64,000 nucleotides of DNA, taken from NCBI RefSeq assembly GCF_030499515.1, contig NZ_JASTWJ010000001.1, positions 1,116,001-1,180,000 of the forward strand. Reading direction: 5' to 3'. Source of the DNA: Streptomyces sp. DT2A-34 (GTDB taxonomy: Bacteria > Actinomycetota > Actinomycetes > Streptomycetales > Streptomycetaceae). Below the pieces are notes generated by a model. It ran no database searches, was not told the origin of the DNA, and saw only the letters and a list, made by a program, of their open reading frames with translations. Position 1 is the stretch's first letter, and each line of letters starts with the position of its first letter. The position numbers and the translations under genes were made by a program. Shown piece by piece: positions 18,062 through 39,104 of this stretch.

Positions 18062-18298
18062 CCCCATTACCTTTTTGGTAGCCCCGCAATGGGGCGCCCG
18101 GCCTTCGGAGTTGGCATGACTTTCTCCCCCTGTCGATCGCATGTCTTGGGGGGTGGTGTCACCGGCTCCGGAGGCATCGACAGACCGCTGATTAGGGGCA
18201 TGACCACCGGCTTCTTCGCAGGTCGGGAGGCTCTTCGTAATGTGGATGTGGCGATCGGTGCCGTGGGACGGCCGGGCGAGGACGACCGAAGGACGCAC
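18062..18298 (+). ncRNA. Candidate bridge RNA region of IS110
   Basis: IS110-group elements encode a structured bridge RNA in the long non-coding end upstream of the transposase gene. The region here has the right length and position, and it contains stem-loop candidates: TTACC-TTTTT-GGTAG and GCCCC-GCAA-TGGGGC near 18067-18095. I did not fold it or identify target and donor loops. Confidence 0.35.
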
Positions 18299-19715: not shown

Positions 19716-20966
19716 TCAGAAGCGGCCCGAACCCCGGTACAGCTCCAGCTCCCCGTCCAGTTCTACGGCGAGCACCGTGGCGTGCGGGTCGAGGTCCGCC
19801 CCGGTGGGCGGTTCGATCCAGAGCACGCCCGGCGTTTCGTGCAGGCCGCCGGTGACCCGGTGGGCCAGTTCCGTGCCGCTGCCGAGGACCGTGACCCGGC
19901 GTACCGCACCGAGCAGCCCACGTACGTTGATCTCGGCGCGCGGGGCGTCGAAGAGGATCAGGTACAGGGTGCGGCGGTCCTTGGAGAGGGTGCTCGGGCC
20001 GTAGTGGTGACCGGGCGGGAGGCCGCGTTCGGTGCCGTACACCGCCTCCGCGTGCTTGGCGATCCAGTCGCCGAGCCCCTCCAGGCGTTCGACCTGCTCC
20101 GCCGGGATCGTGCCGTCCTCGCGCGGTCCGACGCTGAGCAGCAGGTTGCCCCCGCCGCCGATCGTCTCCGCGAAGTAGCGGATCAGCTGGTCGACGGACT
20201 TGTGGTTGTGGTCGTGGTGCTGGTGGCCCCAGGAGTCGTTGATCGTCAGGCACAGCTCCCAGGGGCCCTCGGGCGGGACGACCGGGGCGCCCTGTTCGGG
20301 CGTCGCGTAGTCGCCCTCGCTGAGCATGCGGGCGTTGAAGACGACATGCGGTACGTACGACCGGATGAGCGCGGCGAGTTCGGGAATGCGCCACTGCTCC
20401 TCGCTGCGGTCCCACTCGCCGTCGAACCACATCAGGTCCGGCCGGTAGCGGGAGGCGAGCTCGCGGATCTGGCCGTCCCGGTAGGCGATGAACCGTTCCC
20501 AGGCGTCCAGGTCCTCGAATTCCGCCGCGACTTCGGAGTACCGGTTGTCCTCCAGCTCCGGCGGACGGCCCGGCTTGCGCGTGGAGGCGTAGTCGGGATG
20601 ACTCCAGTCCGAGTGCGAGTAGTAGAGGCCGACCTTGAGGCCCTGCTCGCGCAGGGCGTCCGCGTAGCCGCCGATCAGGTCGCGGCCCACGTTCAGGTCG
20701 CCGTGGGCGGTGTCCCACAGGGCCACGCCGTCGTGGTGGCGGCTGGTCAGGACGGCGTACCGGGCGCCGGCCCGCGCGAAGAGCCTCGCCCACTCGCGCG
20801 GGTCGTAACGGGACGCCGTGAAGCGGTCGAACTGGGACATGTACTCGTCGTACGGGACGATGTCGTCGTAGAACGACCAGGACTCCTGGACGCCGTCGAC
20901 GGCGTAGATGCCCCAGTGGATGAAGATCCCCAACTTGGCGTCGGTGAACCAGGGTTGTATGGGCAC
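19716..20966 (-). CDS. Alpha-L-fucosidase, GH29 family
   Basis: This 416-residue glycosidase has the GH29 opening (QPWFTDAKLGIFIHWGIYAV), a substrate-binding TSRHHDGVALWD segment and the catalytic nucleophile Asp182 in LMWFDGEW. No signal peptide is present, so it would act inside the cell on imported oligosaccharides. The N-terminal barrel is followed by a small beta-sandwich (about residues 330-416). It lies six bases after the alpha-mannosidase gene and ends the leftward operon. It starts with GTG. Confidence 0.92.
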   Translation of the reverse strand: MPIQPWFTDAKLGIFIHWGIYAVDGVQESWSFYDDIVPYDEYMSQFDRFTASRYDPREWARLFARAGARYAVLTSRHHDGVALWDTAHGDLNVGRDLIGGYADALREQGLKVGLYYSHSDWSHPDYASTRKPGRPPELEDNRYSEVAAEFEDLDAWERFIAYRDGQIRELASRYRPDLMWFDGEWDRSEEQWRIPELAALIRSYVPHVVFNARMLSEGDYATPEQGAPVVPPEGPWELCLTINDSWGHQHHDHNHKSVDQLIRYFAETIGGGGNLLLSVGPREDGTIPAEQVERLEGLGDWIAKHAEAVYGTERGLPPGHHYGPSTLSKDRRTLYLILFDAPRAEINVRGLLGAVRRVTVLGSGTELAHRVTGGLHETPGVLWIEPPTGADLDPHATVLAVELDGELELYRGSGRF

Positions 20967-20972
20967 CCGCGC

Positions 20973-23900
20973 TCAGCTCCCTTCCGCGCGGCGCAGGCGG
21001 AGCGTGAGGACCTGGAAGGGGCGCAGGGCGACCGCGACGCCGCCGTCACCGGTGACGTCCGCGTCCTGAAGCGGGCGCTCCAGCAGGTCGGTCACCTGGG
21101 CGCCCGCCAGCGGGAAGCCGGTACGCAGGACGCCGGTCGCACGGCCGCCGCCGGACTCGTAGAGGCGTACGACGACGTCACCGGAGCGGTCGTCGGCCAG
21201 CTTGACCGCCTCGACGGTCACGCCGTCGCCGTCCACGGAGACGACCGGTTCGGGCGCGCCCGCCGCATCCGCCACCCGCAGGGGGAGGTTGAGGGAGTAG
21301 CCCTCGGCGACGGCGTCCTCGATGCTCGCGCCGGGGAGCAGGGAGTAGGTGAAGCGGTGCCTGCCCTGGTCGGCCTCGGGGTCCGGGATGCGCGGGGCGC
21401 GGACCAGGCTGAGGCTGACCCGGGTCGTCGTACCGCCGTCCTCGCGGACCGTGCGGGAGACGTCGTGGCCGTACGTCGAGTCGTTGATGACCGCGACGCC
21501 GTAGCCGGGCTCGGCGATGTGCACCCAGCGGTGGCCGGAGACCTCGAAGCGGGCCGCCTCCCAGCTGGTGTTGGTGTGGGTGGGCCGCTGGATGTGGCCG
21601 AACTGGATCTCGGCGGAGGAGTGCGGGGCACGGATGTCCACCGGGAAACCGGCCTTGAGGATCTTCTCGGCCTCGTGCCAGTCGATCTCGGTCTCGAAGT
21701 CGATGCGGGGGCTGCCGGCGCGCAGGGTGATCGTCTGGGTGACCTGCGAGCCCTTGCCGAAGGAACGCGTGACGCGGATCGCGCCGCGCAGGGGGTCCTC
21801 TTCGACGACGGCCACCGCGTCGGCGTCCAGCAGATCCGTATAGCGGTTCTTGTAGTGCTTGTCGATGTCCCAGGCGTCCCAGTAGTTCGGGAGGTCGGTG
21901 TGCAGGCGCAGGAGGTTGCCCTTGTCGGCGAGCACCTCGCGGTTCGCCCGCAGATCGAACACGGAGGACAGGGTGCCGTCCTGCGCCACCTCGACCCGCA
22001 CCAGGCCGTTGTCGAGGACCCGGCCCGCCACCTTCACCGACTGTGCGGGCTGGGCGTCGGTCAGCGGCGCGCTGCCGCTCGCGGGCACCTCGACGTAGGC
22101 CGGTGCGCCCTCGGAGGTGCGGACGACCTCGGCCCGGTCGAAGGGGCTGGTGTTGAACACCCGCGTGCCGCCGGCGCCCAGCGCGGCCACGGCCTCGGCG
22201 GTCAGCGCCTCCAACTCCTCGGCCACGCGGGCGTATTCGGCCTCCGCCTCGCGGTGCACCCAGGCGATCGAGGACCCCGGCAGGATGTCGTGGAACTGGT
22301 GCAGCAGGACGGTCTTCCAGAGCCGGTCCAGCTTCTCGTACGGGTACACGTACCCCGGCGCGTGCAGCGCCGCCGTCGTGGCCCACAACTCGGCCTCGCG
22401 GAGCCGGTGTTCGCTGCGCCGGTTGCCCTGCTTGGTGCGGGCCTGCGAGGTGTAGGTGGCGCGGTGCAGCTCCAGGTAGAGCTCACCGACCCACACGGGG
22501 GCGTCCGGGTACTCCTCGCGGGCCTTGGCGAAGAAGTCGTCGGGGTGCTCGACGACGACCTTCGGAGAACCCTCCAGGTCGGCGAGGCGGCGCGCCCGTT
22601 CCATGATCTCGCGGGTGGGGCCGCCACCGCCGTCGCCCCAGCCGAACGGCGCGAGGGAGCGCGTGCCGCCGCCCTTCTCGGAGTAGTTGCGGACCGCGCG
22701 GTCCATCTCCTCGCCGCTGAAGCGGGCGTTGTAGGTGTCGACCGGCGGGAAGTGGGTGAAGATGCGGGTGCCGTCGATGCCCTCCCACCAGAAGGTGTGG
22801 TGGGGGAACTTGTTCGTCTGGTTCCAGGAGATCTTCTGGGTCAGGAACCACTCGTTGCCGGCGAGCTTGGCGAGCTGCGGGTAGGCGGCGGTGTAGCCGA
22901 AGGAGTCCGGCAGCCAGACGCCCTTGGTCTCGACGCCGAAGTGCTCGATGAAGAACCGCTTGCCGTGGATGAGCTGGCGGGCGATCGCCTCGCCGCCGGG
23001 CAGGTTGCCGTCGGCCTCGACCCACATGCCGCCGACCGGCGCCCACTGGCCCTTCTTCACCGACTCCTGGATACGGGCCCACACGTGCGGGTAGTTGTCG
23101 CGGACCCACTCGTACTGCTGGGCCTGCGAGCAGGCGAAGATGAAGTCGTCGTACTCGTCGGCCAGGGACGTGACGTTGGAGAAGGTGCGGGACGTCTTGC
23201 GCTTCGTCTCCCGGATCGGCCACAGCCACGCCGAGTCGATGTGGGCGTGGCCGACACCGGAGACCGTGTGCGCGCTGGCGTGGGCCGGCCTGGCGAGCGC
23301 CGGGGCGAGCACCTCGCGGACTGCGGCGGCGCTGCCCGAGATGTCGTCGAGGTCCAGGGCGTCCATGGCCCGGTCCAGGGCGTGCATGATCTCGTGGCGG
23401 CGCGGCTCGTGCTCGCCGAGGTGGACCATGAGCTCGCGCAGCACCTGGATGTCCAGGTCGAGGTGCCAGACCTCCTCGTCCAGGACGGCGATGTCGGCGC
23501 GCTGGAAGGTGTACAGCGGCTTGTCGCCTGCCGTGAGGACGTCGCCGAGCCGGGTCGTCCTCGAGAAGTTGTCGGCCAGGATGTCCGGGTTGGAGGCGGC
23601 CTCGACCAGGTAGTCGATCTCCTCGCCGCCCGAGACCGGGTTGCCGATCGGCACGTACTGGTTGAGCGGGTTGACCGCCTTCAGGGGCCGGCCATCGGGC
23701 AGGTGGACCAGGGCCTCGGCCTGGTTGCCGGGCCAGTCGCCCACGAAGCCGAGGTCGATGACCGCCTCGACGCGCCGTCCGGCCCACTCGGCGGGGACGC
23801 GCCCGCGCATACGGAACCAGGTCGTGCCCCAGGGCGGACCCCACGGGGTGTCCATCGCGAAGGGTTGGTACCGGGCGGCCGCGGCCTCCTCGAAGGAGAC

Positions 23901-24026
23901 GGGCTCTCCCGGCGCCTGCCAGGCCTCGACCTCGAGGGGGACGGTGGCCGAGTAGATCGCGGGCCTGATGCGCTGGTTGTGGACGCGCTCGACGCGTTCC
24001 TCGATCCGGCGGCGTTCGTCGTGCAT
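20973..24026 (-). CDS. Alpha-mannosidase, GH38 family
   Basis: This 1,017-residue enzyme has the GH38 catalytic domain after a beta-sandwich N-terminal part. The zinc-binding GHAHIDSAWLWP is near residue 260, and the nucleophile Asp is in GVWLPDSFGY near 373. The remaining half is the usual beta-sandwich domains. No export signal is seen, so it is cytoplasmic and would trim alpha-mannosides from imported glycans. The ATG is preceded by GGAGACC. It is co-transcribed with GH29 and probably with GH4, with a LacI-type palindrome in the gap before it. Confidence 0.93.
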   Translation of the reverse strand: MHDERRRIEERVERVHNQRIRPAIYSATVPLEVEAWQAPGEPVSFEEAAAARYQPFAMDTPWGPPWGTTWFRMRGRVPAEWAGRRVEAVIDLGFVGDWPGNQAEALVHLPDGRPLKAVNPLNQYVPIGNPVSGGEEIDYLVEAASNPDILADNFSRTTRLGDVLTAGDKPLYTFQRADIAVLDEEVWHLDLDIQVLRELMVHLGEHEPRRHEIMHALDRAMDALDLDDISGSAAAVREVLAPALARPAHASAHTVSGVGHAHIDSAWLWPIRETKRKTSRTFSNVTSLADEYDDFIFACSQAQQYEWVRDNYPHVWARIQESVKKGQWAPVGGMWVEADGNLPGGEAIARQLIHGKRFFIEHFGVETKGVWLPDSFGYTAAYPQLAKLAGNEWFLTQKISWNQTNKFPHHTFWWEGIDGTRIFTHFPPVDTYNARFSGEEMDRAVRNYSEKGGGTRSLAPFGWGDGGGGPTREIMERARRLADLEGSPKVVVEHPDDFFAKAREEYPDAPVWVGELYLELHRATYTSQARTKQGNRRSEHRLREAELWATTAALHAPGYVYPYEKLDRLWKTVLLHQFHDILPGSSIAWVHREAEAEYARVAEELEALTAEAVAALGAGGTRVFNTSPFDRAEVVRTSEGAPAYVEVPASGSAPLTDAQPAQSVKVAGRVLDNGLVRVEVAQDGTLSSVFDLRANREVLADKGNLLRLHTDLPNYWDAWDIDKHYKNRYTDLLDADAVAVVEEDPLRGAIRVTRSFGKGSQVTQTITLRAGSPRIDFETEIDWHEAEKILKAGFPVDIRAPHSSAEIQFGHIQRPTHTNTSWEAARFEVSGHRWVHIAEPGYGVAVINDSTYGHDVSRTVREDGGTTTRVSLSLVRAPRIPDPEADQGRHRFTYSLLPGASIEDAVAEGYSLNLPLRVADAAGAPEPVVSVDGDGVTVEAVKLADDRSGDVVVRLYESGGGRATGVLRTGFPLAGAQVTDLLERPLQDADVTGDGGVAVALRPFQVLTLRLRRAEGS

Positions 24027-24071
24027 GAGAGGTCTCCAGGGAGGGAGAGAACGGAGGGGGAAGCGGGGGAC

Positions 24072-24084
24072 GGAAGCGCTTTCC
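24072..24084 (-). promoter_or_regulatory. LacI-type operator GGAAGCGCTTTCC
   Basis: This near-perfect palindrome centred on GCGC lies in the 67-base gap between the GH4 and GH38 genes. It has the layout of LacI-family sites that control glycosidases in Streptomyces (for example the CebR-type TGGGAGCGCTCCCA). No LacI-family gene is in the window. Confidence 0.5.
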
Positions 24085-24093
24085 GGGCGAGCG

Positions 24094-25434
24094 CTACCTA
24101 AGGTACGCGAGGCCGGGATGCACCCCGGCGTACCCCTCGACCAGCCTGCGGGCGACGTTGACCGAGTCGACCAGCGGGTGCAGCGCGAACGCCTTCACCG
24201 CCGTCGTGCGCGAACCGGACTCGGCGGCGGCCAGCACCTCCCGCTCGACCGCCTTGACCGAGCAGACGAGGCCGGTGGCGTGATCGGGCAGGGGGGCGAC
24301 GGCGACCGGGTGGGCACCGTTGGCGTCGACCAGGCAGGGCACCTCGATGACGGCCTCGGAGTCGAGCACCGAGAGCGTGCCTTGGTTGCGGACATTGAGG
24401 ATCAGGGTCGTGCGCTCGTCGCGGGCGATGGCTCGCATCAGCGCGAGCGCCACTTTCTCGTAGCCGCCGGAGAGGTCGTCGGCGTCGCGCTCGCCGGCGC
24501 CGGCCGTCTCCCGGTTCTCGGACATGTAGGTGGCCTCGCGCTCGGCGCGGGTGCGGTCCCAGATCTCCAGGGCGGAGGCGTCCGACCGCTCGACCTCCCG
24601 GTAGAAGTGCGCCTGCTGGTCGGCGAGGAAGGCGCCGCGGGTCTTGTCGGCCTGCTGGTAGGCGCGGACCGCTTCCCGGTTGAAGTAGTAGTAGTGCAGG
24701 TACTCGTTCGGGATCGCGCCCAGCGACCGGAGCCAGTCGACGCCGAAGAGCTTGCCCTCCTCGAAGGAGCCCAGCAGGTCGGGGTCGGCGAGCAGGCGGG
24801 GGAGTTCGTCGCGGCCGGCGACGCGCAGGCCGCGCACCCAGCCGAGGTGGTTGAGGCCGACGTAGTCGATCCATGCCTCGCCCGGGTTCTTCACGCCGAG
24901 CACGCGGGCGATACGGCGGCCGAGGCCGACCGGCGAGTCGCAGATGCCGATGACGCGGTCGCCGAGGTGGCGGGACATGGCCTCGGTGACCAGGCCCGCA
25001 GGGTTGGTGAAGTTGATGACCCAGGCGTCCGGCGCGAGGCGGGCCACGCGCTGGGCGATGTCGATGGCGACGGGCACGGTCCGCAGGCCGTAGGCGATGC
25101 CGCCCGCGCCGACCGTCTCCTGGCCCAGGACGCCCTCGGCGAGCGCGACCCGCTCGTCGTTCGCCCTGCCCTCCAGGCCGCCGACGCGGATCGCCGAGAA
25201 GACGAAGTCGGCGCCGCGCAGGGCCTCGTCCAGGTCGGTCGTGGCGGTCACCTCGGGCGCGTCCGGCACCCCGGCCGCCTGCTCGGCGAGCACGCGGGTC
25301 ACCGCGGAGAGCCGCTGCGCGTCCAGGTCGTGCAGCACGACCTGGGTGACCCGGCCTTCGGCGCGGTCCGTCAGGAGCGCCCCGTACACGAGCGGTACGC
25401 GGAATCCTCCGCCGCCCAGAATCGTCAGTTTCAC
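24094..25434 (-). CDS. GH4-family NAD-dependent glycosidase
   Basis: This 446-residue enzyme of glycoside hydrolase family 4 cleaves by an NAD+ and divalent metal-dependent redox mechanism. It shows the dinucleotide start KLTILGGGGFRVPLVYGAL, INFTNPAGLVTEA (about 125-137), the metal-ligand cysteine in GICDSPVGLG (about 149-158) and GLNHLGWVRGL (about 180-190). It is closest in style to 6-phospho-beta-glucosidases. The GTG at 25434 is set by GGGAGGA upstream. Together with the divergent PfkB kinase it suggests that one sugar is handled in phosphorylated form, but GH4 substrates vary widely. Confidence 0.88.
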   Translation of the reverse strand: MKLTILGGGGFRVPLVYGALLTDRAEGRVTQVVLHDLDAQRLSAVTRVLAEQAAGVPDAPEVTATTDLDEALRGADFVFSAIRVGGLEGRANDERVALAEGVLGQETVGAGGIAYGLRTVPVAIDIAQRVARLAPDAWVINFTNPAGLVTEAMSRHLGDRVIGICDSPVGLGRRIARVLGVKNPGEAWIDYVGLNHLGWVRGLRVAGRDELPRLLADPDLLGSFEEGKLFGVDWLRSLGAIPNEYLHYYYFNREAVRAYQQADKTRGAFLADQQAHFYREVERSDASALEIWDRTRAEREATYMSENRETAGAGERDADDLSGGYEKVALALMRAIARDERTTLILNVRNQGTLSVLDSEAVIEVPCLVDANGAHPVAVAPLPDHATGLVCSVKAVEREVLAAAESGSRTTAVKAFALHPLVDSVNVARRLVEGYAGVHPGLAYLR

Positions 25435-25624
25435 CGGGTTCCTCCCATCGGGCAGGCGGCGCGCAACGCGTGGTGAGAACTGAGCACGCGCCACCTCCTT
25501 GACCTTGCTTCAAGACCCCGGGCTGGTTCCGACCCGGCTGGTGTCGAGGGCGTGAGACCTCGCTGTTCGCTGAGCGGTGGGGCGTCCTGGGCCAGAAGTT
25601 GCCTCGCGTCAGCCGCGGGAGGGC

Positions 25625-26410
25625 TCACGTCTGCACCATTCCCGCCACGACGACCTCGACGCCGGCCTCCTGCAAGGAGGCCCGCGTCACCGCATCGACC
25701 GGCGCGTTCGTCACCACCACGTCCAGGTCGTCCGGACCGCACACCCTCGCCATACCCGTGCCGGGGAACTTCGCCGCGTCGGCGAGCAGCACGACCTTCT
25801 CACCGGCCTTGATCATGGCCCGCTTGACCGGCACCTCGACGACCGTCGTGTCCATCACCTGCCCGCCCGGCCGCACCCCGCTGGTCCCCAGGAACAGCCA
25901 GTCGGCATGCAGCTGGCGCAGGTTGTCCTCGGTGAGGAAGCCGACCAGGGAGCGGTACTCGCGGCGGAGCATGCCGCCGAGCACCACCAGCTCGATGCCC
26001 TCGTCATCGGCGAGCTCCTCGTAGACCACCAGATTGCTGGTGATCACCGTGAGGCGGCGGCCGTGCAGCTGGCGGGCCAGCCGGAAGGCGGTCGTGCCGA
26101 TGTCGAGCAGCACCGACTGACCATCTTCGATCATCGAGGCGGCGCGCGCGGCTATGGCGTCCTTCTCGGCCACGCGCATCTCGGCGACCTCGGCGAAGGG
26201 CTGATCGCCCTCCTCCACGACCGCGCCGCCGTGCACCCGCGTAAGGAGGCCGTCCTCCTCGAGTTTGACCAGGTCACGCCGGATCGTGGCGGGGCTCACA
26301 CCCAGTTGCTCGGAGAGATCGGTCACGGCCGCGGGGCCACCGGAGCGCAGGGCCCGCAGGATGAGTTGGTGTCGTCGTTCTGCCAGCACGATGCGAACAC
26401 TACTCGTCAT
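25625..26410 (-). CDS. DeoR-family sugar regulator
   Basis: This 261-residue repressor has an N-terminal winged helix (AVTDLSEQLGVSPATIRRDL, about residues 28-48) and a C-terminal DeoR sensor domain. The latter holds LLDIGTTAFRLARQL, ITSNLVVYEEL and VVLLADAAKF, the last being near the usual phosphosugar site. Such proteins respond to phosphorylated sugars. It lies between the two arms of the glycan locus and is divergent from the PfkB kinase gene, the probable source of its effector. The ATG at 26410 lacks a strong ribosome site; a GTG at 26398 is an alternative. Confidence 0.88.
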   Translation of the reverse strand: MTSSVRIVLAERRHQLILRALRSGGPAAVTDLSEQLGVSPATIRRDLVKLEEDGLLTRVHGGAVVEEGDQPFAEVAEMRVAEKDAIAARAASMIEDGQSVLLDIGTTAFRLARQLHGRRLTVITSNLVVYEELADDEGIELVVLGGMLRREYRSLVGFLTEDNLRQLHADWLFLGTSGVRPGGQVMDTTVVEVPVKRAMIKAGEKVVLLADAAKFPGTGMARVCGPDDLDVVVTNAPVDAVTRASLQEAGVEVVVAGMVQT

Positions 26411-26445
26411 CTTCAATCATCGCCATGCTCATTTCTGCTCGGGTA

Positions 26446-26475
26446 TTGACCAATCTCTCTGAGCAGCGCACGATT
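26446..26475 (+). promoter_or_regulatory. Candidate sigma-70-type promoter for the rightward operon
   Basis: TTGACC (26446-26451) and ACGATT (26470-26475) are 18 bases apart, in the AT-richer divergent region between the DeoR and PfkB genes. This would give a leader of about 60 bases to the kinase gene. Confidence 0.45.
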
Positions 26476-26544
26476 CCGGTCACCGAAATGAAGAGTTTTG
26501 ACGAGCTCTCCCCAGCGGGAGTCCCGAACGAGAGGACGCGATCC

Positions 26545-27597
26545 GTGGACGACGACCGGCCCGATGTGCTGCTGACCGGGCTGCTCTTCTACGACCTCGT
26601 CCTCACGGGGCTCGGGAAGCCGCCGACCCCGGGCGAGGAGATCTGGACGGGCGGCATGGGCTGCGGCCCGGGCGGCATCGCCAACCTGGCGGTGGCCGCC
26701 GCCCGCTTCGGCCTCAGGACCTCGCTGGCCACGGTGTTCGGCGACGACCTGTACGGCGAGTGGTGCCGGGACATCCTGTGCGACCAGGAGGACATCGACC
26801 TCTCGCTGTCGCGCACGGCGGACGGCTGGCCCACCCCGGTCACCGTCTCCCTCGCCTACGGCCACGACCGGGCCCTCGTCACCCACGGCCAGGAGCCCCC
26901 GTACTCGCAGGACGCGCTGATGGGCGACCCGCCCGAGGCGCGCACGGCCCTCGTGCACATCGAGGCCGAATCCCGCGAGTGGCTGGCCAAGGCCGCCGCG
27001 AACGGCACGCGGATCTACGCCGACGTCGGCTGGGACCCCACCCAGCAGTGGTCGACCGACCTGCTCGACCAGCTCTCCCTGTGCCACGCCTTCCTCCCCA
27101 ACGAGACCGAGGCGATGGCCTACACCCGCACCGACAGCGCGGTCGCGGCCCTCGGCACGCTCAGCGAGCTGGTGCCGGTGGCCGTGGTGACGCGGGGCGG
27201 CGACGGGGCCGTGGCCGTCGACCAGATCACCGGCGAGTACGCGGAGGTCCCGGCCCTGGACGTCGACCTCCTCGACGCGACGGGCGCCGGCGACGTGTTC
27301 GGGGCGAGTTTCGTCGCGGCCTCGCTGGGCGGCTGGCCGCTGGAGGAACGGCTGCGGTTCGCCGTGCTCGCCGCCGGCCTGTCCGTACGGCACCACGGCG
27401 GGGCGCTGGCGGCCCCCGGCTGGTACGGCGTCGACCACTGGTGGCGGTCGGCGAAGGACCCCGACCTGCGACGCGCGTACGGCTTCCTCGCGCACCGCAT
27501 CCCGGCCGACGTCGGCCCGCCCGTGCGCCACGCCCCCGTCACCCCGCCGGCCGGTCCCACGCCGGTGGGCCCACGCGCCTCCGACCGGCGGCACTGA
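26545..27597 (+). CDS. PfkB-family carbohydrate kinase
   Basis: This kinase of about 350 residues belongs to the ribokinase/PfkB family. The signatures are GGMGCGPGGIANLAVAAARFG near the N-terminus and DATGAGDVFGASF (catalytic Asp near 250) in the C-terminal part. The GTG at 26545, behind GAGAGGA, is preferred; ATG at 26488 is possible. As first gene of the rightward operon, before an ABC importer, it would phosphorylate a sugar released from the imported glycan. The sugar cannot be told from the sequence. Confidence 0.87.
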   Translation: MDDDRPDVLLTGLLFYDLVLTGLGKPPTPGEEIWTGGMGCGPGGIANLAVAAARFGLRTSLATVFGDDLYGEWCRDILCDQEDIDLSLSRTADGWPTPVTVSLAYGHDRALVTHGQEPPYSQDALMGDPPEARTALVHIEAESREWLAKAAANGTRIYADVGWDPTQQWSTDLLDQLSLCHAFLPNETEAMAYTRTDSAVAALGTLSELVPVAVVTRGGDGAVAVDQITGEYAEVPALDVDLLDATGAGDVFGASFVAASLGGWPLEERLRFAVLAAGLSVRHHGGALAAPGWYGVDHWWRSAKDPDLRRAYGFLAHRIPADVGPPVRHAPVTPPAGPTPVGPRASDRRH

Positions 27598-27644
27598 CCC
27601 TCACACCCCCTCTCCACGTCGTACAGGAACAACAGGAGTGACCC

Positions 27645-28925
27645 GTGGACCTTTCTCGTAGAGGCTTCCTCCAGGCCGCCGTGCTCACCGCGGCCGCCTC
27701 CGGCCTGACCGCCGCCTGCGGCAGCGGCTCGGAATCGACCGGCACCAAGAACGGCAAGGACCTCACCCTGTGGTACTGGGGTGGCGCCCTCAGCGACAAG
27801 GTGGTCGCCGAGGCCAAGACGCACTTCGGCAGCCAGGTCAAGCTGACCGCCGCCTCCATCGGCGGCGACTTCAAGCAGAAGCTCACCACCACCCTCGCGG
27901 CGGGCGGCTCCTCCGTGCCCGACATCACCGGCATCAAGGGCGAGGACATCGCCTCCTTCCTGCCCAACGCCGACCGCTTCCTCGACCTGAACGACCTGGG
28001 CTTCAAGAAGATCTCGTCCCAGTACCTGGAGTGGAAGACCAAGCTCGCCCAGACCAAGGACGGCAAGCAGATCGGGTTCCCGATCGACATCGGTCCCACC
28101 GCGCTCTTCTACCGCGCGGACCTGTTCGACAAGGCCGGGCTGCCCACCGACCCCGACAAGGTCGCAGCCGAGGCCAAGACCTGGGACGACTACTTCGCCC
28201 TCGGCTCCGAGCTGAAGAAGGCGCAGCCCGGCACCTTCCTGATCAACAACATCAGCTCCGTGTTCAATATCGCGGTCGGCCAGGGCACCAAGCGGTTCAT
28301 CGACGAGGACAACCACTTCATCGGCGACCAGGACCACATCCGCGCCGCGTGGGAAACAGCGATCCGCCCCTACACGCTCGGCATCGACGCCAAGATCAAC
28401 GACCAGACCTGGAACGCCGCCATCGGCAAGAACCTGGCCACCGAACTCGGCGCCGCCTGGCACGCGCTGGACATCGAGTCGGCGGCCCCCGGCACCAAGG
28501 GCAAGTGGCGGGTCTGCGCAACCCCGGCCGGACCGGCGAACCAGGGCGGCTCCTATCTCGCCCTGCCCTCGCAGTGCCGGAACCCCGAAGAGGCGTTCAA
28601 GATCATCAGCTGGATCCTCAGCCCGGACAACAACGCCAAGAGCTACACCGACGCCACCATCTTCCCCGCCTCTCCGGCGACGTACTCGATGGAGGCCATG
28701 ACGGGCCCCGACGCCTTCTTCGGCGGACAGAAGATCATCGAGGTCTTCGGCCCGGCCGCCGAGGCCATCCCGGTGAGCTACGAGGCACCCGCCGACTCCG
28801 CCGTCATGGCGCCCTTCATGGCCGAGCTGAGCAGCATCGAGGCCAAGGGCAAGAAGCCCGACGACGCCTGGAACGACGCGGTCGGCCAGGCCAAGCAGAT
28901 CGCCCGGCGACAGGGGGTGAACTAA
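27645..28925 (+). CDS. ABC sugar-binding lipoprotein (family 1, Tat signal)
   Basis: This 426-residue solute-binding protein starts with a twin-arginine signal (LSRRGFLQAAVL) running into a lipobox (LTAACGSG), so it should be exported folded and lipidated. The mature part begins DLTLWYWGGALSD, typical of family 1 carbohydrate-binding proteins. The GTG start has AACAGGAG upstream. It is followed by two sugar-type permeases; no ATPase gene is present, as is usual in Streptomyces, where the shared MsiK serves many sugar importers. Confidence 0.9.
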   Translation: MDLSRRGFLQAAVLTAAASGLTAACGSGSESTGTKNGKDLTLWYWGGALSDKVVAEAKTHFGSQVKLTAASIGGDFKQKLTTTLAAGGSSVPDITGIKGEDIASFLPNADRFLDLNDLGFKKISSQYLEWKTKLAQTKDGKQIGFPIDIGPTALFYRADLFDKAGLPTDPDKVAAEAKTWDDYFALGSELKKAQPGTFLINNISSVFNIAVGQGTKRFIDEDNHFIGDQDHIRAAWETAIRPYTLGIDAKINDQTWNAAIGKNLATELGAAWHALDIESAAPGTKGKWRVCATPAGPANQGGSYLALPSQCRNPEEAFKIISWILSPDNNAKSYTDATIFPASPATYSMEAMTGPDAFFGGQKIIEVFGPAAEAIPVSYEAPADSAVMAPFMAELSSIEAKGKKPDDAWNDAVGQAKQIARRQGVN

Positions 28926-28926
28926 G

Positions 28927-29934: not shown

Positions 29935-30803
29935 CGACAGCCGCCACCACATCGCCGGCCACGGGCGCGAAGCGGCGGCTACGGCGCCCCAAGGGCCTGA
30001 CTGCGCACATCCTCCTCGCCCTGGCCGTCCTGATCTCGGTCTTCCCGTTCCTGTGGACGATCGTGATGGCGACCAACACCACCAAGGACATCTACCAGAG
30101 CCCGCCGAAGCTGACGTTCGGCTCGCATCTGCTGGAGAACATCCGGAACGTCCTCAACACCATCGACTTCTTCGGGTCGATGCTCAACACGATCATCGTC
30201 GCGAGCGTCACCACGGTCCTGGTGCTGTTCATCGACTCCCTGGCGGCCTTCGCCTTCGCCAAGTTCGACTTCCCCGGGCGCAAGGTGCTCTTCGGCACGC
30301 TGCTGGTGTTCATGATGCTGCCGCTCCAGCTGGCCGTCCTGCCGCAGTTCATCCTGATGTCCGAGCTCGGCTGGGTCGGCATGCTCAAGGCGCTGGTCTG
30401 GCCCGCCCTCTCCAACGCCTTCGGCATCTTCTGGCTGCGCCAGTACATCGAGAACGGTGTTCCCGACGAACTGCTCGACGCGGCACGCATCGACGGCGCC
30501 GGGTTCTTCCGTCAGTACTGGAACGTCGCCCTGCCGATGATCAAGCCCGCGCTGTCCTTCCTCGCCATCTACGCCTTCGTCAACGCCTGGAACGACTACG
30601 TCTGGCCGCTCATCGTGCTCACCAACCCCGACCACGTCACGCTCCAGGTGGAGCTTGCCCAGCTCAACCTCGGCCACAACACCGACTACAGCATGGTCAT
30701 GGCCGGTGTGCTGATGGCAGCCCTGCCCCTGGTCATCGTCTTCAGCATCTTCGCGCGCGGGTTCATCGCGGGCGCCACCGAAGGTGCGGTACAGGGCAGC
30801 TGA
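29931..30803 (+). CDS. ABC sugar permease (MalG/UgpE type)
   Basis: This 290-residue permease has the EAA-type loop LLDAARIDGAGFFRQYWNVA (about 182-201) and six membrane segments. The ATG lies within the stop region of the first permease gene. With the upstream gene it forms the channel of the carbohydrate importer. Confidence 0.9.
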   Translation: MTTAATTSPATGAKRRLRRPKGLTAHILLALAVLISVFPFLWTIVMATNTTKDIYQSPPKLTFGSHLLENIRNVLNTIDFFGSMLNTIIVASVTTVLVLFIDSLAAFAFAKFDFPGRKVLFGTLLVFMMLPLQLAVLPQFILMSELGWVGMLKALVWPALSNAFGIFWLRQYIENGVPDELLDAARIDGAGFFRQYWNVALPMIKPALSFLAIYAFVNAWNDYVWPLIVLTNPDHVTLQVELAQLNLGHNTDYSMVMAGVLMAALPLVIVFSIFARGFIAGATEGAVQGS

Positions 30804-30828
30804 ACCGGTGTCGAGAAGGAGGTGCACA

Positions 30829-31763
30829 GTGGTGGAGGTCGCCGGCGGGGAACGGCCGCGGCGCGGCAAGGTGCTCGTGGTGGGTATGGACGGGTTGCGC
30901 TTCGACCGGCTGATCCGTTCGCCGTCCACGGCACCCGTGCTGCACGGACTGATGGCCTCGGGCGCCCACGGCACCAGCCTGCTGCCGTACGGCGAGGCGG
31001 ACGGCCAGGCCGACGGCGGGCCGTCCACCAGCATGGCCTACACCGACTCCGGCCCCGGCTGGTCGAGCGTGCTGACCGGAGTGTGGCCCGACCGCCACGG
31101 GGTGACCGGCAACGACTTCACCGGCGCCGACTATGCCCGCTACCCCGACTTCCTGACGCGTGCCGTCACCGCCCGGCCCGGCCTGCGCACCGCGGCCGCG
31201 GTGTCCTGGCCGCAACTGATCCGCCGCGGCACCCTCGGCCGCGCCATCGGCCGGCGCGTGCGCTACAACGGCGAGTCCCGCGGCTACGAGACCGCCGACC
31301 GCCGCGTCGCCCGCACCGTCACACGCTGGCTCACCAAGGGCGACCCGGACGCCGTGTTCGTGTACTTCGGCGCCACCGACGAGGCCGGCCACGCCACGGG
31401 CCCCCTCTCCCCCGCCTACGACGACGCTCTCCGTGCCCAGGACACCCACCTCGGGCGGCTGTTGGAGGCGATGGAAGAACGGCGCCGTGACCCCCGGCGC
31501 ATCGACGAGCACTGGACCGTGCTGGTCACCACGGACCACGGTCACCTCGACACCGGCGGCCACGGCGGCGACACGCGTGCCGAGCGGGAAGTCTTCGTCA
31601 TCCTCGCCGGGCCCGGCGTGCCCGAGAGCACCCGGCTCGACACGCCCCGCCTCATCGACATCGCCCCCACCGTCCTGGACCGTCTCGGCATCCCCGTCGA
31701 CCCTGCCTGGGGCCTGCAAGGCCACCCCCTGCCCCGGCCCACCGCACCGACTTCGGAATGGTC

Positions 31764-31767
<4 letters not shown>
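30829..31767 (+). CDS. AlkP-superfamily phosphodiesterase/nucleotide pyrophosphatase
   Basis: This 312-residue enzyme resembles type I phosphodiesterase/nucleotide pyrophosphatases. The metal-binding VVGMDGLRFDRL starts the fold, the nucleophile Thr is in GWSSVLTGVWPDRHGV (about 80-95), and TDEAGHATG and TTDHGHLDTGGHG supply further metal ligands. No signal peptide is seen, so it is probably cytoplasmic. It is placed between importer and beta-galactosidase genes, with AGAAGGAGG before a GTG start, and it overlaps the next gene (ATGA). It suggests that the imported glycan carries a phosphodiester or nucleotide-like group. Confidence 0.82.
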
Positions 31768-34694
<2,927 letters not shown>

Positions 34695-34739
34695 ACTCCC
34701 CCACGCCTCCCCTCCCCTGTCACCCTTCACGGAGCACAC

Positions 34740-36572
34740 GTGTGTACTTCGCATGACCATCTCCCGGGCGGCGAGGCCGCGCAGGCCGGCGCCGGACGTC
34801 GCGGTTTCCTGCGGGCCACCGCACTGCTCGGTGCCGCCGCCACGGCCTCGGTCGCCGTCCCGGCGGTCGCCGAGGCCGCGCCCGCCGGCGACTGGCGGCC
34901 CGATCCCGACAGCCGGCGCTTCACGCTGGCCGTGATGCCCGACACCCAGTACCTCTTCGACGGGCCGAGCATCGACAAGGCGCCGGTCGAGGCGTCCCTG
35001 CGCTATCTGCTGGAGTACGGCCGGGAGGAGAACATCGTCTTCCTGTCCCACCTCGGCGACCTCACCCAGAACGGCAGCCGGCCCGAAGTCGCCGCGATCA
35101 GCGAGGCGTTCCGGCTCCTGGACCGGCGGGGCGTGGGCTACAGCGTCCTCGCCGGCAACCACGACGTGAAGTCGTCGACGGACGACCAGCGCGGGGCGAC
35201 GCCGTATCTGGACGCCTTCGGGCCCAAGCGGTTCCAGGGGAAGAAGACGTTCGGGGGTGCCTCCCCCGACGGCTACAACAGCTTCCACCTCTTCCAGGCC
35301 GCCGGCCGCGCGTGGATGGTGCTCGCGCTGGACTGGCGGCTGTCGGAGAAGGGCTACGCGTGGGCCAAGGACGTCCTCGCCCGGCACCCGAAAACCCCCG
35401 TCGTCCTCACCACCCACGAGCTGGTCGTCGAGGACGACTCCCTGTCGGCGTACGGGCAGCAGCTGTGGGACCGGCTGGTCGAGGACCACGACCAGATCTT
35501 CCTCACCCTCAACGGGCACTACTGGCCCGCCGGCCGGGCGACCCGCAAGAACGCGGCCGGAAACGACGTACATCTGCATCTGACGAACTACCAGAACCGC
35601 TACTTCGGCGGCGCCGCGATGATCCGCCTGTACCGCTTCGACCTCGACCGGAACGTCATCGACGTGGAGACGGTCTCGCCGTGGATCCTCGGCCGGGCCG
35701 CGAAGGGGCTCAACGAGCTGGAGCGGCAGGAGATCGAACTCAGCGGTGACACAGACCGGTTCAGCGTCGAGATCGACTTCGCCGACCGCTTCTCCGGTTT
35801 CGATCCGGTTCCCGCCCGCCCGGCACGCCCCGCCTCGCGGATGCTGATACCGGGCACGGTGGCGTACTGGCGGTTCGAGCAGCCGGTGGAGGGCACCACG
35901 GTGCGTGATCTGTCCGGGCGCGGCAACGACCTCACGCTCGTCACGGTCGGCGGCGGCAAGCTGGGCTGGTCCGCCGACCACCACCCCGACCAGCCCGGTC
36001 ACGGCAGCCTGGAGTTCCAGGGCTTCAAGTCCCCGCTGAAGGGGGCGTATCTGCGCACGGTCGACGGGGCTCCGCTCAACTCGGCCACGTTCGGGGACGG
36101 TTACACCATCGAGGCGTTCTACCGGCTCCCGGCCGACTGGGACCCCTCGCACAACGCCTGGTCGGGCCTGGTCGGCCGCACGGGCACGGGCGGCGCCGCC
36201 GGCAAGACCGCCGACGACCCGGACGAGCCGCTCGCCACGCTCTCCCTGTCGAACGACCGGGAGCCGCAGTGGGCGATGCGCCCGCTCAACCAGGAGGGCA
36301 TCGCCACCAACTGGGCCCAGGAGACCCCGCTGGAGACCTGGTGGCACCTCGCGGTCGTCAACGACGGCGAGCACACCACGATGTACGTCGAGGGCTGCCC
36401 GGTGGTCCGCAACCCGAGGGCATCCGCGGTCGGCATCACCTCGGTCGGCCTGCCCTGGCTGCTCGGCGGCTACGAGTACGGCGGCGAGATCGACCAGATC
36501 CTGTACGGCCGCCTCGGCGACGTCCGGATCGTCGCGCGGGCGCTGCCTGTCAAGTCCTTCATGAACCACTGA
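34740..36572 (+). CDS. Tat-exported metallophosphoesterase with LamG domain
   Basis: This 610-residue secreted protein starts with a twin-arginine signal (GRRGFLRATALLG). The calcineurin-like domain follows with VMPDTQY (about 66), HLGDLTQNG (about 105), AGNHDVKSS (about 139), TTHELV and LNGHYWP. A C-terminal LamG/concanavalin-like domain (about 375-600, from TVAYWRFEQP) could bind a glycan. It starts with GTG after GGAG. It joins a phosphodiesterase and glycosidases in the rightward operon, which points to an extracellular phosphorylated substrate. The exact phosphoester is unknown. Confidence 0.83.
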   Translation: MCTSHDHLPGGEAAQAGAGRRGFLRATALLGAAATASVAVPAVAEAAPAGDWRPDPDSRRFTLAVMPDTQYLFDGPSIDKAPVEASLRYLLEYGREENIVFLSHLGDLTQNGSRPEVAAISEAFRLLDRRGVGYSVLAGNHDVKSSTDDQRGATPYLDAFGPKRFQGKKTFGGASPDGYNSFHLFQAAGRAWMVLALDWRLSEKGYAWAKDVLARHPKTPVVLTTHELVVEDDSLSAYGQQLWDRLVEDHDQIFLTLNGHYWPAGRATRKNAAGNDVHLHLTNYQNRYFGGAAMIRLYRFDLDRNVIDVETVSPWILGRAAKGLNELERQEIELSGDTDRFSVEIDFADRFSGFDPVPARPARPASRMLIPGTVAYWRFEQPVEGTTVRDLSGRGNDLTLVTVGGGKLGWSADHHPDQPGHGSLEFQGFKSPLKGAYLRTVDGAPLNSATFGDGYTIEAFYRLPADWDPSHNAWSGLVGRTGTGGAAGKTADDPDEPLATLSLSNDREPQWAMRPLNQEGIATNWAQETPLETWWHLAVVNDGEHTTMYVEGCPVVRNPRASAVGITSVGLPWLLGGYEYGGEIDQILYGRLGDVRIVARALPVKSFMNH

Positions 36573-36588
36573 CCTTCAGGGGACCACC

Positions 36589-38256
36589 ATGACCGAGCAG
36601 CAGCTCCCCACCTGGGCCGACCCGTCCGTCGCCGCCGCCTTCCTGGACGCCCAGGGCGTCTCCAGACGCGGACTCCTACGCCGCGCGGGCCTGTTCGGCG
36701 CCGCGTTCGCCCTCGGCTCCGCGACCCCGGCACTCGCCGCCGACGACCGGCGTCTCGGCGGCGACGACCCCCGCCTCGCCTACCTGGTCGGCGACCACCA
36801 CATCCACTCCGTCTACAGCCACGACGCCAAGTACACGTTCTCCCAACTGGCCGCCGCAGGCGCCAAGTACGGCCTGGACTGGATGGTGTTCACCGAGCAC
36901 TCCAACTTCGGGCACGCCAAGTACGGCGCCCCGCTGGAGCACGAGGAGATCCTCAAGGCGCGCGCCGAGAACCCGCGCCAGCTCATCTTCCAGGGCCTGG
37001 AGTGGTACATCCCGGCCGCCGAGCACTGCACGGTCTTCGCGGCGCCCGGCGCGCACGAGGTCGACCTGCTCACCCGGTTCGAGAGCGCCTACGACGGCAA
37101 GCTGCTCGGCTACGACAAGGGCGGCGCCGCCGACGCGGACACCGCCCGCAACGAGGCCCACGCCGTCAAGGCCATCCAGTGGCTGGCCGAACAGCGCCGC
37201 ACCGGCTACGTCGACGACGTACTCGTCCTCGCCAACCACCCGATGCGCCTCGGCATCGACTCCCCGCACGAGATGCGCAACTGGCGGGACGCGGCCCCCG
37301 AGATCATGATCGGCATGGAGGGCGCACCCGGCGCCCAGGGCGCGGCGATCCCCGGCTGGCGCGGTGCGACCTCGATCCGCGGCGAGTACGAGAACAAGCC
37401 GTCGGCCCAGTCCTGGGCGGGCTACCCGGCGGACGCCTACCTGACGTACGGCGGTTTCGACTGGGCGACCGCGACGGTCGGCGGCCTGTGGGACTCGATG
37501 CTGGCGGAAGGCAGCCTGTTCTCGATCACCACGAACTCCGACGCCCACCGCATCGTCTTCGACACTTGGAAGAACGGCGACTGGCCGGCGGGGCAGAACT
37601 TCGACACCACCGGCAAGCTCCCCGACCCGGTCGACACCACCACCCCGCAGCCGGGCAGCGACTTCTGGCCGGGCCAGTTCAGCCGCACCCACGTCGGTGT
37701 GACCCGCTACGGCTACCGCGCGGTGATGGCGGGCCTGCGCGCCGGCCGGATCTGGCTCGACCACGGACATCTCCTCGACGGCCTCGACGTGCGCCTCAAG
37801 CGGGACTGCGACTCCGGCCGGGGTGTCACGCTGGGCGGCCGGCTGCGCGTGCGCAAGGGCGAGAAGCTCACGCTCACCATCACCGTGACGACCGCCTCCC
37901 GCCCCAACCCGCAGGGAATCGTGCCCGAGTTGGCGCACGTGGACGTCATCCGGGGCGCGGTGCGCGGCCCGGTGACCGACCGGGACACCTGGAAGGCACC
38001 GGACACCAAGGTCGTCCGCGCCTTGGACGTGACGGGCCGGAAGGGGACGTACACCCTGTGCGTCCCGCTGACCGCCGGGGACGAGTCCTTCTACGTCCGC
38101 CTGCGCGGCAGCGACGGCAACCGCCACGGCGCGGGCTACCTCGGGGCGTCGGTCGACCCGCACGGGCCGATCCCGCACGAGCCCGGAAACGGTGACCCGT
38201 GGGCGGATACGTGGTTCTATTCGAACCCCGTGTTCGTCGACGTGACAGGAGCCTGA
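36589..38256 (+). CDS. Tat-exported PHP-domain putative phosphoesterase
   Basis: This 555-residue protein has a Tat signal (VSRRGLLRRAGLFGAAFALG, about residues 24-43) and a PHP domain. Metal-binding residues are visible in GDHHIHSVYSHD (about 68-79), FTEHSNFGH (about 103-111), LANHPMRL and TTNSDAHRIVF. PHP enzymes hydrolyse phosphoesters using two or three metals. The C-terminal 150 residues form a separate beta-rich part. It lies 16 bases after the metallophosphoesterase gene, and its stop overlaps the next start. Activity is inferred from the fold only. Confidence 0.8.
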   Translation: MTEQQLPTWADPSVAAAFLDAQGVSRRGLLRRAGLFGAAFALGSATPALAADDRRLGGDDPRLAYLVGDHHIHSVYSHDAKYTFSQLAAAGAKYGLDWMVFTEHSNFGHAKYGAPLEHEEILKARAENPRQLIFQGLEWYIPAAEHCTVFAAPGAHEVDLLTRFESAYDGKLLGYDKGGAADADTARNEAHAVKAIQWLAEQRRTGYVDDVLVLANHPMRLGIDSPHEMRNWRDAAPEIMIGMEGAPGAQGAAIPGWRGATSIRGEYENKPSAQSWAGYPADAYLTYGGFDWATATVGGLWDSMLAEGSLFSITTNSDAHRIVFDTWKNGDWPAGQNFDTTGKLPDPVDTTTPQPGSDFWPGQFSRTHVGVTRYGYRAVMAGLRAGRIWLDHGHLLDGLDVRLKRDCDSGRGVTLGGRLRVRKGEKLTLTITVTTASRPNPQGIVPELAHVDVIRGAVRGPVTDRDTWKAPDTKVVRALDVTGRKGTYTLCVPLTAGDESFYVRLRGSDGNRHGAGYLGASVDPHGPIPHEPGNGDPWADTWFYSNPVFVDVTGA

Positions 38257-39104
38257 TGAAGCGTCATCTCCTCACTCCCGTTTACTTATTGGGGGCTCTC
38301 GCACTGGGCGCCGGGACGGCGTCCGCCGCCGGCGATCCGCGCTGGGCCGAGACCGGCACCGCCTACACGGACACGCTGGGCGGCGGACAGGGCCTGGCGA
38401 GTCGCGCGGACGGCTCACTGCTGTACCGCGGGCTCGCCTCCATCCCCCTGGGCCTGCGGATCAAGGGCTGGAACCACGTCGGCGACCCGGACATCGCACT
38501 CGGCCACACCTTCGACGCCTACCAGGGCCCGGACACGGCCACGTCCAAGATGTTCGCGGTGACGACCCCGGCCGGGAAGCGCTACGAGTACGTGCACCGG
38601 CTCAACCCGGGCGAGAAGCCGAACAACTCCTTCGCCACCGTCTCACCCGACGGGCAGTGGCTGGTGTCGGGCGAGTGGGGGGAGCAGAGAAGACTCCAGG
38701 TCTTCCCCGCTCCCCTGCTGAACCCGGCCACGCCCCGGGCCGGCGGCGAGCTGGCGGAGGCCGGGCAGATCACCCTGGACAAGCCGGTACGCGACATCCA
38801 GGGCTGCGACTTCGTGACGGACACCCGCCTGCTGTGCGCCTCGAACGACGCCACGGGGACGCTCTTCCCCGAGATCCGCCCGCTGCTCCAGGTGGATCTG
38901 CCGCGCAAGGTGGACGGCCGGCCGGTCACCGGCACGGTGAAGAACCTGTTCGCGCCGCCACAGCGCAGCGTGTGCGCGGGCACCTTCGAGGCGGAGGGCG
39001 TCGACTACGACGTGCACAGCGGCACCCTGCGCACACAGATGATCCCGCCCGGCGTGTGCGCGGTGGCGACGGCCGTCTCCTCGTACAAGCAGGTCACGGG
39101 CTGA
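38256..39104 (+). CDS. Secreted protein of unknown function
   Basis: This 282-residue protein has a Sec signal (LLTPVYLLGALALGAGTASAAG) and a beta-rich mature part with two Cys pairs (IQGCDF/RLLCAS; RSVCAG/GVCAVA) that may form disulfides. Segments such as FATVSPDGQWLVSGEWG resemble a propeller blade. I do not recognise the family. The ATG overlaps the stop of the PHP gene (TGATG), so it is probably made together with it and may be its partner. Confidence 0.75.
   Translation: MKRHLLTPVYLLGALALGAGTASAAGDPRWAETGTAYTDTLGGGQGLASRADGSLLYRGLASIPLGLRIKGWNHVGDPDIALGHTFDAYQGPDTATSKMFAVTTPAGKRYEYVHRLNPGEKPNNSFATVSPDGQWLVSGEWGEQRRLQVFPAPLLNPATPRAGGELAEAGQITLDKPVRDIQGCDFVTDTRLLCASNDATGTLFPEIRPLLQVDLPRKVDGRPVTGTVKNLFAPPQRSVCAGTFEAEGVDYDVHSGTLRTQMIPPGVCAVATAVSSYKQVTG

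Follow-up and report, generated by a model that had tools for sequence, protein, structure and literature searches.

In Streptomyces, the csnREFGHK operon (CsnR-K) for chitosan oligosaccharides is described, in the text available, as a cluster conserved among actinobacteria that combines a repressor and an ATP-binding cassette (ABC) importer with a glycoside hydrolase of family 4 (GH4) and a putative oligosaccharide kinase (PMC5635096, PMC6097792); the S. coelicolor kinase SCO2662 is discussed alongside glucosamine kinases in the available part of a further paper (PMC6520443). Use of yeast alpha-mannan by Bacteroides thetaiotaomicron employs a GH38 enzyme that removes phosphate-linked mannose, together with phosphatases, and the N-glycan operon of Bifidobacterium longum holds three GH38 enzymes and a GH125 enzyme (PMC10154615, available passages). 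Here we describe a locus of Streptomyces sp. DT2A-34, found within a 64,000-nucleotide stretch (contig NZ_JASTWJ010000001.1, positions 1,116,001 to 1,180,000; hereafter the window), in which a DeoR-family regulator, a PfkB-family kinase, an ABC importer and predicted glycosidases of families GH29, GH38, GH4 and GH2 are accompanied by an NPP-type phosphoesterase (NPP), a secreted metallophosphoesterase (MPE) and a secreted PHP-domain protein (PHP). We read it tentatively, at somewhat under an even chance, as a DeoR-linked catabolic operon for a mannose-, galactose- and often fucose-containing oligosaccharide, built for exchange of its importer. The new and better-founded result is the recurrent exchange of the importer cassette, one version of which brings its own putative phosphoesterase.

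To survey the distribution of the locus, 199 Streptomyces genomes were searched with NPP, MPE, PHP, PfkB and the solute-binding protein. A PfkB orthologue of the locus is present in 48 of them (73-100% identity), and the binding-protein matches split exactly these 48 into 16 genomes of type A (window included) and 32 of type B. Type B operons contain the same DeoR, PfkB, GH2, MPE and PHP genes with another importer: their flanking proteins are mostly 77-94% identical to those of the window (68-82% in G055 and G165), and their binding protein and permeases are ~45% and 51-59% identical to the window's. With 12 rows of each type compared, binding-protein identity is 45.5% between types, 86.6% within A and 83.8% within B. 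NPP occurs in 15 of the 16 type A main loci and was not found in any of the 32 type B operons, G150 being judged from protein-search matches (its stretch is not in the comparison, and its PfkB and type B binding protein are neighbours by coordinates). The NPP search itself matched 16 of the 199 genomes (window included) at 76% identity or more, after which matches drop to 54%; a 17th genome, G026, holds a remnant only. Among 16 NPP-bearing stretches besides the window, 13 have near-identical gene order between ATP-grasp and AMP-ligase genes, two are partial contigs (G139, G099) and one differs (G140). G197 and G108 lack GH29. Fragments of the locus, cut or decayed, in G001, G013, G020 (second contig), G024, G146 and G169 fall outside the count of 48. 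In G020, MPE with a remnant of GH2 lies beside the ATP-grasp gene (L078, contig 10) and a type B operon without MPE lies elsewhere (L189, contig 24), as if the operon had moved.

The replaced segment has sharp edges. In aligned DNA of the window and G049, identity is 84-98% from 26.4 to ~27.35 kb, falls to ~50% by 27.55 kb and is again 92% at ~31.8 kb, which places the edges at ~27.5 and ~31.8 kb, near the end of PfkB and the start of GH2. The breakpoint pattern is alike when L128 is compared with G091 and L148 with G068. Trees of the two flanks were built from those rows in which both flanking proteins exceed 85% coverage (70 and 72 rows), after the distant NPP loci L053-L056 had been removed from the tables; removal of identical binding proteins reduced that set from 92 to 85. 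On the tree of MPE and PHP (70 rows: 47 A, 23 B) the type label must change at least 10 times, with 8 changes forced by well-supported branches, and on the tree of DeoR and PfkB (72 rows: 53 A, 19 B) it changes 7 times. For both flanks, none of 500 label shuffles needs as few changes, so type is inherited to some extent in addition to being exchanged. In a set of 24 rows, picked after the first tree was known, type B as a single clade is rejected (p-AU, approximately unbiased test, 6.5e-85); this set requires 7 changes, 6 of them forced, and 116-118 of 500 shuffles are as low. The binding-protein tree separates A and B into distinct groups (99/98 and 100/99). A single row makes the point: L128, of type A, clusters on each flank with two type B rows, G079 and G091, at 100%, and by its binding protein with L113 and L143. 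Breakpoints and trees thus show the importer, with the predicted NPP in one version, to be a cassette that has been swapped repeatedly while the surrounding enzymes stayed, and we infer homologous recombination in the conserved flanks as the route. In eight rows (L102, L103, L113, L120, L125, L143, L144, L149) GH2 is 74-76% identical to that of the window and MPE and PHP are 80-88% identical, hinting at a further exchange that may have included GH2.

The same importer and NPP recur at a second, smaller locus, which occupies a different conserved site. In G140, L112, L116 and L119, a second DeoR gene (DeoR', ~70% identical to that of the window) and a second GH4 gene (GH4', ~68%) are divergent from importer A and NPP. 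Four other genomes (G125, G062, G091, G177) have the same DeoR' with a different importer, A2, and no NPP. The A2 binding protein shares 70-71% identity with that of the window, and two of the four genomes yielded GH4'. The A and A2 versions share 93% identity in DeoR' and GH4', 73% in the binding protein, 70% in Perm1 and 62% in Perm2. NPP is therefore present in 4/4 small loci with importer A and in 0/4 with importer A2, and the comparison shows that, at both loci, every importer beside which NPP was seen is importer A. Seven genomes have NPP away from the main locus (the four with the small locus, and those of L131, L141 and L145), and the main locus of each is of type B, as judged from the permeases (in S. 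spongiae from part of one) with kinship ignored; this argues that NPP still serves the pathway.

An earlier note on this DNA had listed three phosphoester-hydrolase folds, two in secreted proteins. Three metallohydrolases with folds of phosphoesterases are indeed encoded here, and two bear twin-arginine signals recognized by eye; the note's further expectation that phosphoesterases and glycosidases are conserved together did not survive the survey. NPP is found in 15 of the 48 operons (G139 is cut by a contig end and the G026 remnant is not counted) and MPE in 40 of 48 (two on broken contigs, and G150 entered from search matches alone). The eight type B operons in which MPE was not found are those of G055, G165, G032, G111 and G020 (L184-L187, L189), G109 (L190), G061 (L188) and G150; G109 keeps PHP at 78%, and in G061, where the operon is cut by a contig end, no MPE match was found anywhere in the genome. 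By type, MPE is present in 16/16 A loci (two on broken contigs) and 24/32 B loci, a difference to which we give no weight since kinship is ignored. PHP is missing from G144 and G172. Both MPE and PHP have stand-alone relatives at 51-73% identity outside such operons (three neighborhoods read by eye). Conservation of phosphoesterase genes apart from the glycosidases, which by the note's own account would refute its idea, is thus seen in part, through the operons lacking NPP or MPE and the outside relatives of MPE and PHP. With NPP tied to importer A, these absences and outside relatives indicate that the three folds are not one set; they appear to have been added separately to a core of glycosidases, and part of the predicted phosphate chemistry looks tied to the uptake pump, not to the whole operon.

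The metal-ligand pattern of NPP, assigned by eye, comprises D36, S89, D199, H203, D251, H252 and H260, and the metal-ligand and nucleophile positions are invariant in 10 close and 18 wider sequences aligned. A predicted model (mean predicted local distance difference test score, pLDDT, 83) gave 7n1s and NPP3 as top Foldseek matches, with 2gsn, ENPP7 and ENPP6 among the best 50; template modelling scores normalized to the query are mostly ~0.6, and 0.49 for ENPP7. By sequence and by this model the fold is NPP-like, with a two-metal ligand set. Reading frames of NPP are open in the four genomes checked besides G026 (G144, G182, G084, G193). PHP matches the NCBIfam CehA/McbA model at 58 bits, under that model's cut-off of 80, a similarity that makes the label of phosphoester hydrolase less sure for PHP; it could be a CehA/McbA-like esterase and not a phosphatase. 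No usable solved relative was found for MPE (best E 0.076) and none for PHP at E 0.1. A predicted structure of PHP was unusable (mean pLDDT 40); the relatives aligned were all close.

The kinase and the GH4 enzyme form a more widespread association. Across 394 actinomycete genomes searched with both proteins, PfkB is present in 95 and GH4 in 94. Outside Streptomyces, 56 genomes have PfkB, 54 have GH4 and 53 have both, and the two genes are neighbors and divergent in 52 of the 54 GH4-bearing genomes; this count leaves out GH4 matches of 38-41% identity, by which G560 and G561 are scored as without the gene. A Fisher test on the pairing takes unlisted genomes as lacking both genes and ignores kinship, and is not relied upon. 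Streptomyces contributes 40 genomes with a match (39 PfkB, 40 GH4). The survey shows PfkB and GH4, as annotated from their families, to be a class-wide pair. Eight stretches surrounding unpaired Streptomyces GH4 genes were compared: GH4 lies beside the ATP-grasp gene in L204 and L205, in L203 GH4 is accompanied by GH38, both flanking genes and a remnant of DeoR, and in the other five GH4 is alone among the genes sought. The arrangement in L203-L205, with GH4 by the ATP-grasp gene and no operon, looks like an ancestral or a decayed state. A distant actinomycete (L199, 7615-16447) joins a PHP-like gene to the GH4/PfkB core in an association of its own: clustered there are genes for GH4, DeoR, PfkB, an ABC importer, a PHP/CehA-like protein and a NagB-like deaminase (the last two identified by eye). 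The window genome also has a 52%-identical PfkB relative at 6.86 Mb (L193, 7157-10705), whose neighbors resemble, by eye, 5-dehydro-4-deoxyglucarate dehydratase and glucarate dehydratase.

GH4 scores 196 bits against ChbF, the phospho-type enzyme of E. coli, and 122 bits against MelA, and among solved structures 224 bits against PDB 1s6y and 82 bits against 1obb; by these scores it lies nearer to the 6-phospho-glycosidase branch than to the alpha-galactosidases and alpha-glucosidases. There was no phospho-glycosidase model among the NCBIfam matches of GH4. The PfkB kinase matches the IolC model at 78 bits (cut-off 300). The simplest joint reading of the pair, suggested by their adjacency and by the similar pairing of GH4 with a putative kinase in CsnR-K, is that PfkB phosphorylates a glycoside that GH4 would then cleave. 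GH38 has as its nearest solved relatives 7ufs (827 bits), which we take to be the B. longum GH38 enzyme, and the cytosolic Ams1.

Both strands of the window from 17 to 42 kb were read and the open frames were scanned against Pfam (Table 1). The glycosidases, PfkB, importer, DeoR regulator and phosphoesterase folds listed in the earlier note were all recovered in their places. Pfam scores back the glycosidases, PfkB, importer, NPP and DeoR strongly, and those of MPE and PHP are modest. Its description of a divergent, DeoR-linked locus also holds: DeoR, GH4, GH38 and GH29 run leftward and PfkB, importer, NPP, GH2, MPE and PHP rightward, in a compact arrangement whose order is kept in dozens of species and is therefore not due to chance. 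Perm1/Perm2, Perm2/NPP and NPP/GH2 are overlapping genes, and the gaps in the window are 45 bp between GH2 and MPE and 16 bp between MPE and PHP. From this spacing the genes from PfkB to PHP seem to form a single transcription unit and, as far as spacing tells, regulation of the phosphoesterases separately from the glycosidases is not apparent. The PfkB open reading frame opens at 26425, and the homology of most relatives starts at about residue 34-45. GH4 carries the motifs IRVGG..R..DER and CDSP. No ATP-binding subunit of the importer was found among the locus genes scanned. The intergenic region is conserved across 84 aligned loci and carries inverted motifs CTCGTCA / TGACGAG (motifs by eye), a candidate DeoR operator; visual comparison shows only a weak resemblance to the sequence preceding DeoR' at the small locus. 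A search of 19-40 kb with a single pattern gave no Pho boxes. An IS110-family transposase gene lies at 18089-19501, just left of the GH29 end, and an IS110 relative (69% identical) adjoins the small locus of G140.

Table 1. Features of the DeoR-linked locus, in positions of the window.
Feature	Position	Strand	Basis
GH29 alpha-L-fucosidase, intracellular	19716..20966	-	PF01120 280 bits
GH38 alpha-mannosidase	20973..24026	-	PF01074/PF07748 327/226 bits
GH4 glycosidase	24094..25494	-	PF02056/PF11975 150/170 bits
DeoR-family regulator	25625..26416	-	DeoRC 155 bits + HTH_DeoR
Conserved intergenic region	26417..26544	.	Inverted motifs + promoter-like TTGACC (motifs by eye)
PfkB-family kinase	26545..27597	+	Pfam PfkB 106 bits
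Exchangeable cassette (PfkB 3' tail, binding protein, two permeases, NPP)	27500..31790	+	
ABC importer solute-binding lipoprotein, type A	27645..28925	+	SBP_bac_8 74 bits
ABC importer permease 1 (Perm1)	28927..29934	+	BPD_transp_1
ABC importer permease 2 (Perm2)	29931..30803	+	BPD_transp_1
NPP-type (alkaline phosphatase superfamily) phosphoesterase	30784..31767	+	Phosphodiest PF01663 88 bits; cytosolic by eye
GH2 LacZ-type beta-galactosidase	31758..34694	+	PF02836 293 bits
MPE, Metallophos + LamG	34740..36572	+	PF00149 29.7 bits (cut-off 21.5); twin-arginine signal by eye
PHP-domain / CehA-McbA-like metallohydrolase	36589..38256	+	PF02811 31.6 bits (cut-off 26.4); twin-arginine signal by eye
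Secreted open reading frame after PHP, no recognised family	38256..39104	+	Kept in only part of relatives

These features suggest a mechanism in which secreted MPE and PHP would trim ester groups off a glycan outside the cell, and the importer would take up the trimmed oligosaccharide. Importer A may accept a form still bearing a phosphodiester, which the cytosolic NPP would remove, and importer B may take a form needing no NPP step. Inside the cell, GH29, GH38 and GH2 would strip fucose, mannose and galactose; PfkB would phosphorylate one glycoside product, and the phospho-type GH4 would cleave it to release a sugar phosphate without a phosphotransferase system (PTS). DeoR, relieved by a product, would control both arms. 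A phosphorylated substrate is possible, most plausibly as the cargo of importer A, and fungal mannans, mushroom mannofucogalactans and N-glycans are all candidate substrates. A wider statement, possible though on balance doubtful, would join these elements: the importer with its cytosolic phosphodiesterase would be a plug-in cassette swapped through recombination at two glycan loci, such that strains differ in taking up phosphodiester-bearing or dephosphorylated forms, and the DeoR/PfkB/GH4 core would represent a class-wide PTS-free route of kinase followed by GH4.

Several observations weigh against an operon of this kind with an exchangeable importer. The left flank tree (DeoR and PfkB) forces only 2 changes of type. 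In G026, importer A is kept and NPP is cut to a remnant of ~50 residues, so NPP is dispensable there, and NPP evolves faster than its neighbors: its median dN/dS (ratio of nonsynonymous to synonymous substitution rates) is 0.42, where GH2 and MPE have 0.21 and 0.22 (each from 30 type A sequences). NPP genes in L131, L141 and L145 (74-81% identity, near position 10 kb) have no neighboring importer, and the eight type B operons in which MPE was not found belong here as well. GH4 and PfkB are neighbors in only 17/40 of the Streptomyces genomes in the class sample, so their link in this genus is one of co-occurrence, and the best NCBIfam match of GH4 is alpha-galactosidase (192 bits, cut-off 486).

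The accelerated evolution of NPP, its loss in G026 and its occurrence without an importer alongside in three stretches would all suit an explanation in which NPP is a passenger of importer A, its role unrelated or decaying, and only the importer is exchanged. We consider this unlikely, however, given the invariant metal-ligand and nucleophile residues, the open frames outside G026 and the type B operons in the genomes of L131, L141 and L145. A substrate without phosphate is a possible but improbable alternative, in which the target would be a mannose/galactose/fucose oligosaccharide such as mushroom mannofucogalactan or an N-glycan fragment, MPE and PHP would be general secreted hydrolases (PHP possibly an esterase), and phosphate would enter only through PfkB. 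One mushroom mannofucogalactan is built on a backbone of alpha-1,6-galactan that bears alpha-mannose and alpha-fucose, a structure that would suit GH29 and GH38 (PMC6432100, available text). The proximity of GH38 to 7ufs and Ams1, the sub-threshold CehA/McbA match of PHP and the incomplete linkage of MPE and PHP to the core would fit such a substrate, but two things would be left unexplained: that an NPP-type enzyme accompanies importer A at both loci, and that the main locus is present in all seven genomes with a stray NPP.

Read strictly, the earlier note goes further: the whole set would serve a single phosphorylated mixed glycan, such as a phosphomannan of fungi, an N-glycan bearing phosphate or a glycosylphosphatidylinositol (GPI)-type glycan, and all three phosphoesterases would be needed for it. 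The compact, conserved operon that this idea calls for is present, with co-operonic spacing and with MPE adjacent in 14 of the 16 type A loci, counting the window (the remaining two are on broken contigs), and the available account of B. thetaiotaomicron provides a precedent for GH38 with phosphatases on yeast mannan (PMC10154615). The idea is nonetheless decidedly unlikely: the phosphoesterases do not behave as one set, 32 of 48 operons are without NPP and 8 of the 32 type B operons yielded no MPE, relatives of MPE and PHP also lie outside operons of this kind, and GH76, GH99, GH92 and GH125 are all absent from the Pfam matches of the locus genes. Mushroom glycosyl-inositol-phosphoceramides have the structure Fuc-Gal-Man-inositol-P-ceramide. 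Their headgroup could be a target if MPE or PHP freed it from ceramide, the glycosidases took the sugars and NPP the phosphate; the sugar order would fit GH29, GH2 and GH38 with a phosphodiester, and PfkB has some similarity to the IolC model. This is highly improbable: no ceramide or inositol gene was recognized among the scanned locus genes, and a review (PMC12942302) gives no such structures in its available text, which mentions neither fucose nor basidiomycetes or mushrooms.

Our favored reading, a catabolic operon with an exchangeable importer, would have practical consequences if true. The natural swaps would constitute a ready-made comparison within a constant operon, with two importers, with and without NPP, in related species, which makes the question of importer cargo directly testable. 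Soil bacteria may retune glycan uptake by changing the pump and not the enzymes, and the PfkB/GH4 pair would provide a handle on the substrate of two enzymes that roughly one in four of the actinomycete genomes sampled encode. Among the literature matches listed, there was no recognizable account of such a Streptomyces locus, of importer exchange or of the likely substrates, nor was matching text found in the available part of an S. scabies proteomics paper (PMC11479980).

NPP enzymes carry a Thr/Asn pair. The window NPP shares the fold and metal-ligand pattern of the NPP/ENPP phosphodiesterases (Xac NPP, ENPP6, ENPP7), but it has ~330 residues and no signal peptide by eye, and the position of the Thr/Asn pair aligns with Ser89/Gly92 (by eye). 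As far as the available descriptions of CsnR-K extend, both clusters combine an ABC importer with GH4 and a saccharide kinase; the Csn repressor CsnR is of the ROK family whereas the window regulator is of the DeoR family, SCO2662 is not presented as a PfkB protein whereas the window kinase is of the PfkB family, and the mannosidase, fucosidase, galactosidase, phosphoesterases and importer exchange are features of the window only. The association of GH38 with phosphoesterases is shared with B. thetaiotaomicron (PMC10154615, available passages), but the endo-acting GH76/GH99 and the GH92/GH125 enzymes described there were not found among the Pfam matches of the window locus, to which the ABC importer, GH4 and PfkB belong instead. 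With the operon of B. longum, as described in the same passages, the window locus has GH38 in common; the GH125 of that operon was not found here, and the phosphoesterases and PfkB are additional components of the window locus.

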